DNA of 64,000 nucleotides from NCBI RefSeq assembly GCF_900113545.1, contig NZ_FOPS01000001.1:248001-312000 (forward strand). Reading direction: 5' to 3'. Shown one piece after another: positions 10,340 through 49,800 of this stretch (its first letter is position 1; every line of letters starts with the position of its first letter). A model generated the notes under the pieces. The model was given only the letters and a program-made list of their open reading frames with translations, was not told the DNA's origin and ran no database searches. This DNA comes from Neisseria elongata subsp. elongata (GTDB lineage Bacteria > Pseudomonadota > Gammaproteobacteria > Burkholderiales > Neisseriaceae). The position numbers and the translations under genes are program-made.

Positions 10340-11128
10340 GTGAAAACCATCAGTCAAACCCTCAACCTCGTTTCAGACGGCCTGCCGTTTTTTCAGGCGG
10401 AATGGCCGGCACCCGCCAACGTGAAAACATTGGTCAGCACCCGAAACGGCGGGGTGAGCCAAGCCCCCTATGCTTCCCTGAATGTCGGCGGCCATGTCGG
10501 CGACCGGCCGGAAAACGTCGCGCGCAACCGCGAAATCGTGCAAGCCGCCGTACCTGTGCCGCCCGCCTACCTGAACCAAACCCACAGCAGCATCGTGCTG
10601 CCCGCCGCAGACGTGCTCGGCAGCACGCCCGAAGCCGACGCATCATTCGACCGCACGGGCACGGCAGCTTGCGCGGTGATGACGGCAGACTGCCTGCCCG
10701 TTCTGCTTTGCGACCGCGCGGGCACGGTGGTGGCCGCCGCCCATGCGGGCTGGCGCGGCCTGGCAGGCGGCATCCTGCAAAACACGGTGGCCGCGATGCA
10801 GGCCGATCCCGGCGAAATCATGGCCTACCTCGGCCCCGCCATCGGCCCCGATGCTTTCGAGGTCGGCGAAGACGTGCGCGAAGCCTTCTGCCGCCTGCAT
10901 TCCACCGCCGAAAACGCCTTTGAAGGCATAGGCGGCGGCAAATACCTGGCCGACATCTACGCCCTCGCGCGGCAAACCCTGCGCCGCGAAGGCGTAAACC
11001 TGATTTACGGCGGTACGCACTGCACCGTATTGGAACGCGACACCTTTTTCTCCTACCGCCGCGACGGCCAAACCGGCCGGATGGTCAGCATGATTTGGCT
11101 GGAAAAACCGGCTGGCGAGGCCGTCTGA
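10340..11128 (+). CDS. pgeF: PgeF-family polyphenol oxidase / peptidoglycan editing factor (YfiH)
   Basis: 262 residues of the DUF152 (YfiH) family. Family members bind a metal through His and Cys residues and are reported to act as purine nucleoside-related enzymes and to limit misincorporation of Ser into peptidoglycan precursors. Conserved motifs are NQTHSS, MTADCLPVLL (Cys ligand) and AAHAGWRGLAGGI (His ligand). The start is GTG at 10340 preceded by AAGGAATCACC; the ATG at 10326 hits a stop at once. A TATGAT -10-like box sits near 10280. Divergent from the OlsB-like gene. Confidence 0.9.
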   Translation: MKTISQTLNLVSDGLPFFQAEWPAPANVKTLVSTRNGGVSQAPYASLNVGGHVGDRPENVARNREIVQAAVPVPPAYLNQTHSSIVLPAADVLGSTPEADASFDRTGTAACAVMTADCLPVLLCDRAGTVVAAAHAGWRGLAGGILQNTVAAMQADPGEIMAYLGPAIGPDAFEVGEDVREAFCRLHSTAENAFEGIGGGKYLADIYALARQTLRREGVNLIYGGTHCTVLERDTFFSYRRDGQTGRMVSMIWLEKPAGEAV

Positions 11129-11159
11129 AAACCGCCGTGCAAAGGCCGTCCACAAGCCT

Positions 11160-11740
11160 TGTTTACCGCCCTGTATAGAAAATGTGGATAAGCAGGATAA
11201 ACCCTTCAAACGCCGACCGAAAAACAAAACGCCCAAAAAACAGGCAAACTTAAAACATCCGCACCACAACGGCAAACACCTTTTTCAGACGGCCTGAACA
11301 AACCGTGCGGGCAACAAAACCCACAGCCGCTGTTTGCCGCCCTGTGCAGCAAATGTGGATAAGCGGGGTAAACCCTTCAAACGCCGACCGAAAAACAAAA
11401 TGCCTAAAAAACAGGCAAACTTAAAACATCCGCACCACAACGGCAAACACCTTTTTCAGACGGCCTGAACAAGCAATGCGCGCGACAAAACCCACAGCCG
11501 CTGTTTGCCGCCCTGTGCAGCAAATGTGGATAAGCGGGATAAGCCCTTCAAACGCCGACCGAAAAATAAAATGCCTAAAAAACAGGCAAACTTAAAACAT
11601 CCGCACCACAACGGCAGACACCTTTTTCAGACGGCCTGAACAAACCGTGCGGGCGACAAAACCCACAGCCGCTGTTTGCCGCCCTGTATAGAAAATGTGG
11701 ATAAACCCCCTAAGCCTTTCGGGAGACAGGCAAAAAACAA
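11160..11740. repeat. 171-bp tandem repeat array with four perfect DnaA boxes
   Basis: Three full 171-base units start at 11160, 11331 and 11502, and a partial fourth at 11673 decays after about 45 bases. Each begins TGTTT(A/G)CCGCCCTGT. Each carries TGTGGATAA, the complement of DnaA box TTATCCACA, at 11183-11191, 11354-11362, 11525-11533 and 11696-11704, exactly 171 bases apart. Each full unit ends with TTTTTCAGACGGCCTGAAC, a DUS. Units are nearly identical, so recent amplification is likely. No gene is evident in 11129-11771. Possible roles are DnaA titration, a replication-control site, or chance boxes in a mobile repeat. Confidence 0.9.
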
Positions 11741-11771
11741 ACCGCACAAAAAATAAGCATAAGGAACCGCC

Positions 11772-13091
11772 ATGCAAACCCTTTCCGCCGCCGCACGCAC
11801 CCAAGCCGCACGGCTGCGCCTGAAAAAAAGCCGCCGCCTCGCCACCGCCCTGCTTTTGGCCGCCGCCGCACTGTTCTGCCTTTCCGCAGCCTTCCTGCAC
11901 CGTTACCCCCAACTGGCCTACCTCAAAGCCTTCTCGGAAGCCGCCATGATAGGCGGGCTGGCCGACTGGTTTGCCGTTACCGCCCTTTTCAGACGGCCCC
12001 TCGGACTGCCCGTCCCCCACACCGCCATCCTGCCGCGCAACCAAAACCGCATTGCCGACGAACTCGGCCGCTTCATCGAATACAACTTCCTGCGCGAACG
12101 GCCGGTCGCCCTGCGCGTTTACCGCGCCGCACCGACGGAAAAACTACTGCGCCGCCTGGCCGACCCCGCCGTCCGCCGCATCTGGCTGCCCCCGCTCTGC
12201 GCCCGCCTGCCCGACCTGCTGCAAACCGTGCCGCCCGAACAGGCCGCCCGCTTTGCCGCCAAACTGCTGGCCGAACAATACGACGGCGGCAAAATCGGCA
12301 GCACGCTGGCCGACGGCATGGAACTGCTGAAAAACCGCGACATGCACGAAAGCCTGTTCCTTGCCCTGCTCGGCCACACGCGGACATGGCTGCAAAGCGA
12401 AAGCACCCGCGTGCTGTTGGAACAAAACCTGCGCGAATGGGCGGCCAAAATCGACGGCGGCTCGCCCGGCAGCTGGGACAAACTCAAAGCCTCCCTCAAA
12501 TCCGCCCTCGTCGGCCGCGTGGACGACTGGGTAGCGGCCAAAGTGCTGGATTGGGTGGACGGCTGCCTGGCCGATGCCGCCGCACAGCCCGACCACGCCC
12601 TGCGGCAAATGTTCGACCGCCAATACACCCGCATGATCGGCGAACTGCGCCACTCCGCAAGCTGGCACCGCCGCCTCGAAGCGGGCAAGGCGCAACTCGC
12701 CGCCTCCCCCGCCCTACAGCGCAGCCTCGCGCAACTGTGGCAAAGCCTGACCGAATGGACGCGGCGCGACACGGCGGCGGAAAACTCACGCATACGCGCG
12801 CAAATAGAAAAACTGCTCGACCGCATCCCGGCGCAAATCGAACGCAACCCCCGCCTCATGCGCCGCGCCGACATCCGCCTCGCCCTGCTTGCCCGCGAAC
12901 TGCTGGGCAGCAACAAAGGCCGTGCCGCCGCCTTCGTCGCCGAACAGGTCAAACGCTGGAACGGCGAAGAAATCACCGACAAACTGGAACTCGGCCTCGG
13001 CCGCGACCTGCAATACATCCGCATCAACGGCACCCTCGTCGGCGGCCTGGCCGGCCTCTTGATTTACAGCCTCTCGCAATGGCTGTTTTAA
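11772..13091 (+). CDS. DUF445 family membrane protein (YjiN-like)
   Basis: 439 residues. There is one hydrophobic helix near residues 25-45 (ATALLLAAAALFCL), a conserved GGLADWFAVTALFRRPLGLP segment, a long helical domain and a C-terminal hydrophobic helix GTLVGGLAGLLIYSLSQW. This is the DUF445 pattern of inner-membrane proteins of unknown function. The conserved IPHTAILPRN-type stretch appears as VPHTAILPRNQNRIADELG. ATG 11772 follows AAGGAACCGCC. It lies directly after the DnaA-box array, whose last unit may contain its promoter. A DUS inside the gene (near 11990) encodes part of the conserved ALFRRP. Confidence 0.85.
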   Translation: MQTLSAAARTQAARLRLKKSRRLATALLLAAAALFCLSAAFLHRYPQLAYLKAFSEAAMIGGLADWFAVTALFRRPLGLPVPHTAILPRNQNRIADELGRFIEYNFLRERPVALRVYRAAPTEKLLRRLADPAVRRIWLPPLCARLPDLLQTVPPEQAARFAAKLLAEQYDGGKIGSTLADGMELLKNRDMHESLFLALLGHTRTWLQSESTRVLLEQNLREWAAKIDGGSPGSWDKLKASLKSALVGRVDDWVAAKVLDWVDGCLADAAAQPDHALRQMFDRQYTRMIGELRHSASWHRRLEAGKAQLAASPALQRSLAQLWQSLTEWTRRDTAAENSRIRAQIEKLLDRIPAQIERNPRLMRRADIRLALLARELLGSNKGRAAAFVAEQVKRWNGEEITDKLELGLGRDLQYIRINGTLVGGLAGLLIYSLSQWLF

Positions 13092-46823: not shown

Positions 46824-49800
46824 TCACTTCTCCTGCTTCTTCAACAACAAACACGCCAAAATCAGGCTGGTGGCGGCAAAGGCGGCGATGGCGGCGTATT
46901 CGTGCAGCAGGTCGGCGGTGTGCAGCCCTTTGGTGAAGCTGCCGACGCTGACGGTGTAGTACCACGACGACGGGAAGGTTTTGCCGATAACCAGCGCGCC
47001 GCCTTCCATGGTGGACAGCGGGTAGAGAAAGCCGGAATAGGTTTGCGCGGGAATCATGGTGATGATGGCGGTGGAGAAGATGGCGGCAAGCTGGGAGCGC
47101 ACAAAGCAGGAAATCAAAAGCCCCAGCGCGGTGCTGGCGGACACCATCAAGAGCGTGCCGACGGCGAGTCCGGCAAACGAGCCTTTGAGCGGCACGCCGA
47201 ACAGGTAAATAATCATCAGCATCATGGCGGCGAAATTGACCATGCCGACGGCGATATAGGGAAGCTGTTTGCCGATCAGATATTGCGCCACGGCGGCGGG
47301 CGATGCGTAGAAATTGGCGATGGAACCGATTTCGCGTTCGCGCACCACGCCGACCGCCGACATCATGGCGGGTATCATCATCAACACCAGCATCATCACG
47401 CCCGGGGCGATGGCGTTGATGCTGTCGAAATCCTGATTGTACATAAAGCGCGGTTCGATGCAGGCGGGGGCTTTGAGCGAAACGGGCAGCCCGCTTTCGG
47501 CGATGCGGTCTTTAGTGTAGGCGGTGATCAGGCTGCCGATGTAGCCGCGGATGTTGGTGGCGTTAAACGGCATGGAGCCGTCCACATAAAAACCGACTTC
47601 GGGTTTGAGCCCGCGCGCCAAATCGCGCCCGAAACCGCTCGGAATATCGATGACCAATATGGCGCCGGAGCTTTTGAGCACGGTGTCGATTTCGGCTTCG
47701 GACTGTATCGGTGGCTGTTGGAGGAAGTAGCGCGAACCGTCGAAATATTCGACCAGCTCGCGGCTGGCGGCGGTTTGGTCGCGGTCGTAAACGGCGAATT
47801 TCAGATTCCGCACGTCAAACGAAATCCCCCACGATACCGACGCCATAATAATCAGCGGGCCGAACACGGCAAAAAACAGGCGGATTTTGTCGCGCAAAAG
47901 TTCTTTGGCTTCGCGGCGGGCGAAGGTCCAAATCATGGAGAAGCGGTATTTGAAGGTTTGGATGTTTGGGTTGTCTCGCAGGGTGTGTGAACTTGGTTCA
48001 CGCACGCCGTTTTGGTTTTCAGACGACCCTATATCTTTTCCTTGAAGGTCGTCTGAAAGCTCAGAATGCCTGTCATCCGATGCCACTTCCGCGTGCGTGG
48101 CTTGCGCCACACACCCTACGGCCGGAGTTTCCGCCGGTAGGGTGTGTGAACCTTGTTCACGCACGCCATTTTGGGTTTCAGACGACCCTGTATCTTTTCC
48201 TTGAAGGTCGTCTGAAAATTCAGAATGCCTGTCATCCGTTCCCCCTTCCGCGAGTGTGGTTTGTGCCACACACCCTACGGACGGAGTTTCCGCCGGTAGG
48301 GTGTGTGAACTTTGTTCACGCACGCCGCCTGTATTTTGGAGCAACTCGCGTTGATCACTTTCAGAGTGCGCAGCCTCCTGGCGGGACAACCCTTCCCCAC
48401 CTTCTGCTTCAATCAGATACTGCACAAACGCTTCTTCCAAATCCGGCGCATTCTGCCTTGCCGCCAGTTCGGCGGGCGTACCCACCGCCAACACGCGGCC
48501 TTTGTGCATAAAGGAAATGCGGTCGCAGCGGGCGGCTTCGTTCATAAAGTGGGTGGAAACGAAAATGGTGATTTTGTCTTCGCGGGAGAGTTTCAGAAGA
48601 TGCCGCCAGAACATATCGCGCGCGGCGGGATCGACCCCCGAAGTCGGTTCGTCCAAAATCAATACTTCGGGATGGTGCAGACAGGCGGCGGCAAGTTGCA
48701 GGCGTTGGCGGATGCCCAACGGCAACGATGCGGGCGCAGTGTCGGCAACGTCCGCCAAATCAAACTGTTGCAGGGCTTCCTCCACCGCCGCCGCGCCTTT
48801 AGCGCCCATCTGGTAGAGTCTGGCGTGCAAATCCAGATTGCGGCGCACGCTCAGTTCTTCATACAGCGAAAACGCCTGCGACATATAGCCGACACGCATT
48901 TTCGTATCCAAGCCGCCCGCGTCTATCGGCTTGCCCAACAGCGTGGCGGCGCCTTCGGTCGCTTCCAGCAAGCCGGTCAGCATTTTCATGGTGGTGGACT
49001 TGCCGCAGCCGTTGCTGCCGAGAAAGCCGAAAATCTCGCCTTTTTGAATGGTGAAGCTGACATGGTCCACGGCGGTGAAATCGCCGAAACGCTTGGTCAG
49101 CCCGTGCGCTTCCATCGCGGGCGGCGCAGCGGGATCGGGGACGAACGGAGTAATGTCCAAACCGCCCGAACCCTGCTGTTTCTCCGGCGGCAGCATTTTG
49201 ACGTAGGCCTCTTCCAACACGTCGGTGCCGTAATCCGCCAGCACATCGGCAGTAGGCTTGTTTTCCAACAGCCTGCCCGCATCCATCGCCAGCAGCCGCT
49301 CGAAACGCTGCGCCTCTTCAATATAGGCAGTCGCCACAATCACGGTCATGCCCGCGTGTTCCCGCCGCAAATCGTCCACCAACGCCCAAAACTGTCGGCG
49401 CGACAAAGGGTCCACGCCCGTGGTCGGTTCGTCTAGAATCAACAAATCCGGGCTGTGCACCAGCGCGCAGCACAAACTCAGCTTCTGCTTCATCCCGCCC
49501 GATAGCTTGCCCGCCGCCCTGCCGGAAAACGGCGCAAGGCGGGTCGCCTCCATCAGCCGCGCAATCTGCCGCGTGCGTTCCTGCCCGTCCAAACCAAACA
49601 GCCGCGCATGGAAATCGATATTTTCATACACCGACAACGTAGGATACAGGTTGCGCCCCAAACCCTGCGGCATAAAGGCGATGCGGTGCGACAAGTCCCG
49701 CCGCACGTCCTTGTCCGCCATATCACCGCCCAACACTTCCACCCGTCCGTCCTGAATCACCTTCACCCCCGCCATCAGCGAGAGCAACGTCGATTTGCCC

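Follow-up and report, generated by a model that had tools for sequence, protein, structure and literature searches.

To our knowledge, how DnaA is recharged in bacteria beyond E. coli and its kin is an open question. The closest described systems are the E. coli loci DARS1 and DARS2; the sources given here by PMC number are cited from excerpts. In E. coli, Hda makes ADP-DnaA (PMC4245941), so that a recharging route would be useful, and DnaA residues D269 and L290 are needed on both DARS1 and DARS2 (PMC5742627). DARS2 has been described in E. coli-related gamma-proteobacteria (PMC4245941; PMC8682772), among which its core is conserved (PMC4245941); a review also mentions beta, in a passage without details (PMC5742627). 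In the cores of DARS1 and DARS2 of E. coli MG1655 (NC_000913), box II starts 14 bp after box I and box III 12 bp after box II, corresponding to spacers of 5 and 3 bp.

The locus considered here is a repeat array in a Neisseria genome (the source genome), in a stretch of 64,000 nt which was analysed as a whole and is called the window. With a confidence only slightly better than even, and on the strength of comparative anatomy, we read this array as a compact DARS2-like module for DnaA control, present in four tandem copies. Among the titles listed from an open-access library, none deals with DARS, or with DnaA arrays, in Neisseria or the beta-proteobacteria; such a search is no proof of absence, and for datA it was blunt.

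The repeat array

A tandem repeat with a period of 171 bp occupies positions 11160-11704 of the window (3.2 copies, 93% matches; Tandem Repeats Finder), between a pgeF-like gene upstream (10340..11128, + strand; Pfam PF02578, Cu-oxidase_4) and a DUF445 gene (11772..13091, + strand; Pfam PF04286, 291 bits). Exact copies of TTATCCACA lie on the minus strand at 11183, 11354, 11525, and 11696: four boxes, each 171 bp from the next, just as in the preliminary description of repeats carrying this box in one orientation between these two genes. With up to one mismatch allowed, the window has 21 such sites against 7.55 expected, a number reached in none of 100 shuffles.

Inside each repeat is a module of about 106 bp, which aligns gap-free upstream of DUF445 across the genus. 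It has an inverted DnaA box I, followed by three co-oriented boxes, II starting 14 bp on, III 12 bp further, and IV 11 bp further again; an IHF-consensus site starts 15 bp, and a 15-bp Fis-consensus palindrome 48 bp, after the start of box IV. All four modules are on the + strand; scores are those of R1, a sequence-only model made from the training modules described below. Module 1 (11149..11251; 56.5 bits) has box I at 11146-11154 (CCGTCCACA, inverted), degenerate boxes II at 11160-11168 (TGTTTACCG) and III at 11172-11180 (TGTATAGAA), and box IV at 11183-11191 (TGTGGATAA), with a predicted IHF-type site at 11198-11210 and a predicted Fis-type site at 11231-11245. Module 2 (11315..11422; 66.8 bits) has its boxes at 11317-11325, 11331-11339, 11343-11351, and 11354-11362, and predicted IHF-type and Fis-type sites at 11369-11381 (TAAACCCTTCAAA) and 11402-11416 (GCCTAAAAAACAGGC). 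In module 3 (11487..11593; 68.6 bits) the boxes are at 11488-11496, 11502-11510, 11514-11522, and 11525-11533, and the corresponding predicted sites at 11540-11552 and 11573-11587.

The preliminary description had counted three full units and one partial one. The three stand; the fourth proves to be a full-length, diverged module (11658..11762; 43.5 bits, although it was not in the training set), ending 9 bp before the DUF445 ATG. Its boxes are at 11659-11667, 11673-11681, 11685-11693, and 11696-11704, with a weak predicted IHF-type site at 11711-11723 and a predicted Fis-type site at 11744-11758 (GCACAAAAAATAAGC, a full match to the 15-mer). Across the window modules the strong box is IV; box II is TGTTTGCCG or TGTTTACCG, and box III TGTGCAGCA or TGTATAGAA, both degenerate. 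The IHF-type site has two mismatches of nine in modules 1-3 and four in module 4, while the Fis 15-mer has one and none, respectively.

The linkers between modules carry the word AGGCCGTCTGAA, which we take to be the Neisseria DNA uptake sequence: at 11284..11295 (minus strand) in linker 1, outside the module and absent from its consensus; linker 2 has it at 11455-11466 and linker 3 at 11626-11637. There are 77 exact copies in the 64,000-nt window against 0.01 expected, many in close inverted pairs. This density, together with the pgeF relatives, of which the nearest with a name are from Neisseria and at most 73% identical, makes the organism most probably a species of Neisseria. A second tandem repeat (47980-48326; period 159, 2.2 copies, 91% matches) has a variant word, GGTCGTCTGAA, and contains no TTATCCACA with up to one mismatch.

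The middle 171-bp copy shares 92% and 95% identity with the others, and DNA similarity searches found the full unit neither elsewhere in the source genome nor, outside it, in the 46 genus genomes, where there were short matches only, mostly to the uptake-word part. From this, a recent duplication of the full 171-bp unit is very likely, and since the four window boxes share this one duplication history, their identity within the array says little. Weight attaches instead to the module, because other species keep it while the linkers differ. The recent amplification proposed in the preliminary description agrees with the 171-bp copies, but not with the module inside them, which is old.

Anatomy of the module

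Fifty-three box-anchored modules, from the source genome and other species, align without gaps over 114 columns; six candidate elements, window module 4 among them, were dropped by eye from this training alignment. Relative to the first base of TGTGGATAA (position 0), the consensus has an inverted box at -37, TGTG at -11 (49 of 53), a conserved T and TTGAA within +15..+27, an A-rich stretch at +36..+40, and a G...C palindrome at +48..+62. The stretches at +15 and +48 fit the IHF and Fis consensuses given for DARS2 (PMC4245941).

Three sets of modules were compared: the 53 of the training set, 35 from other Neisseriaceae loci, and 42 from other families. The 35 derive from 38 R1 matches (E ≤ 1e-4) outside the training loci, less L276:6944, L275:6497, and L266:7192 (L169 and L271 denote one place), and the 42 were picked by eye from 88 order-level matches as spanning most of the model; having been chosen by R1 and by eye, neither set has scores independent of R1. 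Earlier module scans used assumed Fis and IHF patterns. For the offset scan reported here the Fis 15-mer was taken from PMC4245941; the patterns for IHF (YAANNNNYTGATW) and DnaA (TGTGNAYAA) were loosened by the analyst.

Mean mismatches to the Fis 15-mer are 0.32, 0.89, and 0.95 at the site in the sets of 53, 35, and 42, against 4.01 over all offsets in each set; for IHF they are 2.47, 2.29, and 1.62, against 5.59, 5.60, and 5.96. A perfect Fis 15-mer is present in 37 of 53 training modules, 19 of 35 from other Neisseriaceae loci, and 22 of 42 from other families, and an IHF site with at most two mismatches in 30/53, 20/35, and 38/42. On the 53 training modules alone, the IHF pattern does about equally well at +15 and at -5 (2.53), where it overlaps the DnaA box, and the two offsets are told apart only by the sets of 35 and 42. 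The putative IHF site is nearer to consensus in the other families than in the training modules, and choosing modules by R1 would not in itself be expected to bring this about. In Neisseria a further box, at -23, is weak, with 16/53 and 12/35 within two mismatches of TGTGGA; it is clearer in other families (20/42).

As a control, exact boxes in the loci retrieved from genus and family were sorted into two groups, 48 that lie in catalogued modules and 68 others. The module boxes average 0.50 Fis and 2.48 IHF mismatches, with TGTG at -11 in 43 of 48; the others average 3.93 and 5.65, with TGTG at -11 in none of 68. Two control boxes do have a perfect Fis site, and these are window module 4 and a partial module in L276. 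Consensus IHF and Fis matches at a fixed offset in all three sets, set against the 68 control boxes, point to the order core, IHF-binding site (IBS), Fis-binding site (FBS).

Distribution

DUF445 orthologues were found in 28 of 46 genus genomes, with no match in the other 18; in the species that supplied modules they are 54-61% identical to that of the window. Four same-oriented boxes just upstream of DUF445 in G003 (among the matches listed) were the reason for retrieving DNA upstream of this gene across the genus. A conserved pgeF-DUF445 junction was considered and rejected: within flanks of up to 1.5 kb, pgeF is present at 1 of 29 DUF445 loci, in the source genome only, and the comparison was therefore anchored on DUF445 alone. 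Searched with R1, 67 of the 80 retrieved pgeF loci (675 kb in all) gave no match at E ≤ 0.01.

R1 matches upstream of DUF445 in all 27 genus genomes that have the gene together with upstream sequence, though 26 of these, all but G002, fed the R1 training; G010, where DUF445 is at a contig end with no upstream sequence, was left out. At least 800 bp of upstream DNA was available for 27 genomes (source included); in this stretch 19 of them have one or more exact boxes, and 9 at least two. Boxes are thus kept where the repeat diverges; their loss there would, by the preliminary description, have refuted it. The expectation is 0.015 exact boxes per 800 bp at an assumed 45 per 2.4 Mb (the number per genome ranges from 20 to 55, among the matches listed). 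Seven of the 8 genomes with no exact box at this distance have one-mismatch boxes in the window orientation; the eighth, G002, has two modules 1.2-1.4 kb upstream. The exact box upstream of DUF445 in G021 stands outside any module. Chance boxes were considered and rejected, on these counts (whose binomial value ignores kinship and uses the assumed 45) and on the comparison of module with control boxes.

Searches with R1 were extended from genus to family to order under the stricter filter settings of the search tool. Among the matches listed, all 46 genus genomes have 1-9 each at E ≤ 0.01 (G031 only at 0.0072); at E ≤ 0.001 there are matches in 79 of 83 family genomes (missing G031, G048, G055, and G060); and at E ≤ 1e-4 there are matches in 68 of the 399 genomes drawn from the order, spread over 33 of 158 genera. 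In 300 kb sampled from G045, the best R1 match had an E-value of only 0.48. Twenty order-level loci contain the 88 matches (E ≤ 0.01) mentioned above, with up to seven per array (L310, L311, L324). Loci with a single match also exist (e.g., G001, G028, G040).

Other Neisseriaceae copies adjoin genes for a dnaQ-type exonuclease (G019), holB (G035), a trmA-type gene (G017), recG, nrdR, and earP. For at least 12 of the 20 order-level loci, the gene immediately adjacent (asparaginase, RluA-type pseudouridine synthase, RNase R, U32 peptidase) also adjoins another locus in the same family, and this neighbour changes between families. The matches as a whole establish a fixed-spacing module, with DnaA boxes and predicted IHF-type and Fis-type sites, that is old, low-copy, and often tandem.

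Box spacing and a second locus

Boxes I, II, and III of the module are separated by 5 and 3 bp, equal to both DARS1 and DARS2. A scan for inverted box, spacer, box, spacer, TGTG, over 64 spacer pairs in 188 loci (1.76 Mb), gave matches at 5/3 only, six of them distinct: DARS1 and DARS2, which fit by construction, the pattern being written from them, and four Neisseria loci with strong boxes, at C4:58240 of the source genome and in G021, G040, and G044. Three of these four had been retrieved by way of R1, so the distance from box I to box III is not independent of it; the source-genome locus was first found through its two exact boxes. The strong box II at the position it has in DARS depends less on R1, since R1 is weak there.

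The source-genome match belongs to a second module (C4:58238-58346, equivalent to L271:7239-7346), upstream of earP, with a DARS1-like core in which box I is TTGCCCACA, box II TGTGGATAA, and box III TGTGGATAC. One more exact box follows 188 bp after its box II. Ten of 12 second-locus modules have TGTGGATAA at box II, three of these being near-identical. There are thus two types, a box-II type, comprising the second-locus set, and a box-IV type, represented by the DUF445 array of the window, whose three-box core holds the DARS positions and orientations with boxes II and III degenerate.

Alternative explanations

Titration of DnaA, or a datA-like (DDAH) function, is the best of the other explanations, although we consider it rather unlikely. 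The array would bind DnaA after replication and so lower the free or ATP-bound form, with an IHF bend letting DnaA pack. Arrays of up to seven R1 matches in other families, most of whose modules in L310, L311, and L324 have a strong box, are consistent with this, as is datA itself, which likewise pairs DnaA boxes with an IHF site in an intergenic core (PMC5742627). R1, whose matches to E. coli loci are weak and include neither DARS1 nor oriC, scores datA at 11.2 bits (E 0.0029 in 13.4 kb) and DARS2 at 10.4 bits. However, in minimal datA the IHF site stands between boxes, the order being box 7, box 2, IHF site, box 3 (PMC5742627). In the arrays the next box I does come after the IHF-type site, but single-match loci exist, with no such second-side box. 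The fixed Fis site is a DARS2 feature lying outside the datA minimum as given in the excerpted review (PMC5742627), and the inverted box I with 5/3 spacers is that of a DARS core.

DnaA-dependent control of the DUF445 promoter, with the boxes mediating cell-cycle repression or activation, would account for a module upstream of all 27 DUF445 genes with upstream sequence, and for the prevalence of one orientation (29 exact boxes within 800 bp as in the window, 5 opposite). It is improbable nonetheless: the nearest box or module is anywhere from 76 bp to more than 1.2 kb from the DUF445 start, module orientation is reversed in G006, G025, G029, and G040, and R1 matches every genus genome (among the matches listed), including the 18 with no DUF445 match.

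Still less probable is a neutral tandem repeat or small mobile element that carries a DnaA box by chance. The near-identity of the 171-bp copies and the confinement of the full unit to one genome would suit it, as would the shift of module location between families; against it, the positions of box, Fis site, and IHF site are fixed across families while linkers are not, and copy number is low (1-9 per genus genome, among the matches listed). Correia/NEMIS elements offer a partial likeness, being neisserial repeats of about 107 and about 155 bp, the latter containing a site to which IHF binds in vitro, but they have 24-bp terminal inverted repeats (PMC2229807). Apart from uptake-word pairs, no inverted repeats (seed 9, length at least 10) were found in 11100-11800. 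A mobile repeat was rejected on this ground and because the unit is not scattered in the source genome, a point on which the preliminary description is borne out.

That the array is oriC or a remnant of it is scarcely credible: E. coli oriC, too, has DnaA boxes together with a single IHF site and an AT-rich element (PMC5742627), and the module has an A/T tract, but most genus genomes have several copies (among the matches listed), and GC skew in G045, which turns from minus to plus between 255 and 383 kb with the array at 1.186 Mb, argues against it.

Skew was sampled in two genomes. In G045 it turns negative between the samples at 1404 and 1531 kb (twenty 15-kb samples), and in G011 it is noisy, with a minimum near 2.34-2.48 Mb and the array at 0.02 Mb of 2.76 Mb. 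The dnaA gene of G045 begins at base 7 of the record, and seems to lie apart from the origin, given where the skew switches sign. Elsewhere in the source genome, five exact DnaA boxes lie within 4.5 kb at C13:34896-39314 (L168; best R1 score 14.8 bits), which may be its oriC region. At least 13 exact boxes lie within 31 kb at G001:C1:69992-100397.

The preliminary description had left three options: titration of the datA kind, a DARS, or part of a replication-control locus. These are supported in part: comparative anatomy speaks for a DnaA-control element, with DARS2 as the likely model.

Proposed mechanism and significance

The source genome encodes DnaA, Hda, and Fis. Its DnaA is 40% identical to that of E. 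coli, with K178, D269, R281, R285, L290, and R334 kept; its Hda scores above the curated cut-off; and its Fis (79 residues, beside a dusB-like gene) is above the NF002517 cut-off, with 92 against 99 bits for NF001659. We infer that DnaA would bind the DARS2-like module, with assistance by IHF and Fis and release of ADP, as on DARS2. ADP-DnaA left from Hda-driven hydrolysis might collect on boxes I-IV, with DnaA molecules bound head to head at box I and box II; bending of the flank by IHF and Fis could then alter the DnaA assembly so that ADP leaves, and the freed DnaA would reload ATP and be able to fire oriC. Tandem copies would give higher capacity, plus some titration of DnaA. Since their strong site is box IV, the DUF445 copies may hold DnaA more, and exchange its nucleotide less, than modules of the box-II type. 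The weakest steps in this scheme are the outcome (release, hydrolysis, or mere holding) and the working of the degenerate boxes II and III of the window.

A wider proposal, which we advance tentatively and think somewhat less likely to be right than wrong, is that the Neisseriaceae and many others of the order may control replication through tandem arrays of compact DARS2-type modules that recharge and titrate DnaA, their strength set by module number and strong box, and that these move between intergenic sites. DARS would thus be older and wider than the gamma-proteobacteria. A minimal module of about 106 bp, with all its sites at fixed places, would be a compact object on which to test the DARS mechanism, and with the arrays one could address whether the cell cycle is tuned by copy number.

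Comparison with DARS1 and DARS2

DARS1 has the same 5/3 core as the C4:58238 module, but the 200 bp of it that were scanned lack a perfect Fis 15-mer and have a single IHF-like site, with two mismatches.

The spacing and locus of E. coli DARS2 are not matched by the module, which has shorter distances and other neighbour genes. In DARS2, IBS1 (TAAAATATTCATT) lies 67 bp, and the single perfect Fis 15-mer in the scan (at L229:1781; PMC4245941 names several Fis sites) 119 bp, after the start of box III, as against 26 and 59 bp in the module; from IBS1 to the Fis 15-mer is 52 bp in the former and 33 bp in the latter. DARS2 is 455 bp long (PMC5742627), the module about 106 bp. DARS2 has a second IHF site, in reverse orientation; only the module has an additional box IV, 2 bp after box III, and tandem copies; and box II is weak in the DUF445 type. 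What the two have in common is their overall plan: both are intergenic, with an inverted box I and co-oriented boxes II and III separated by 5 and 3 bp, the core being followed by an IHF site (IBS1 in DARS2, a predicted site in the module) in the TAAnnnnTTGATW orientation, and then by a match to the Fis 15-mer.
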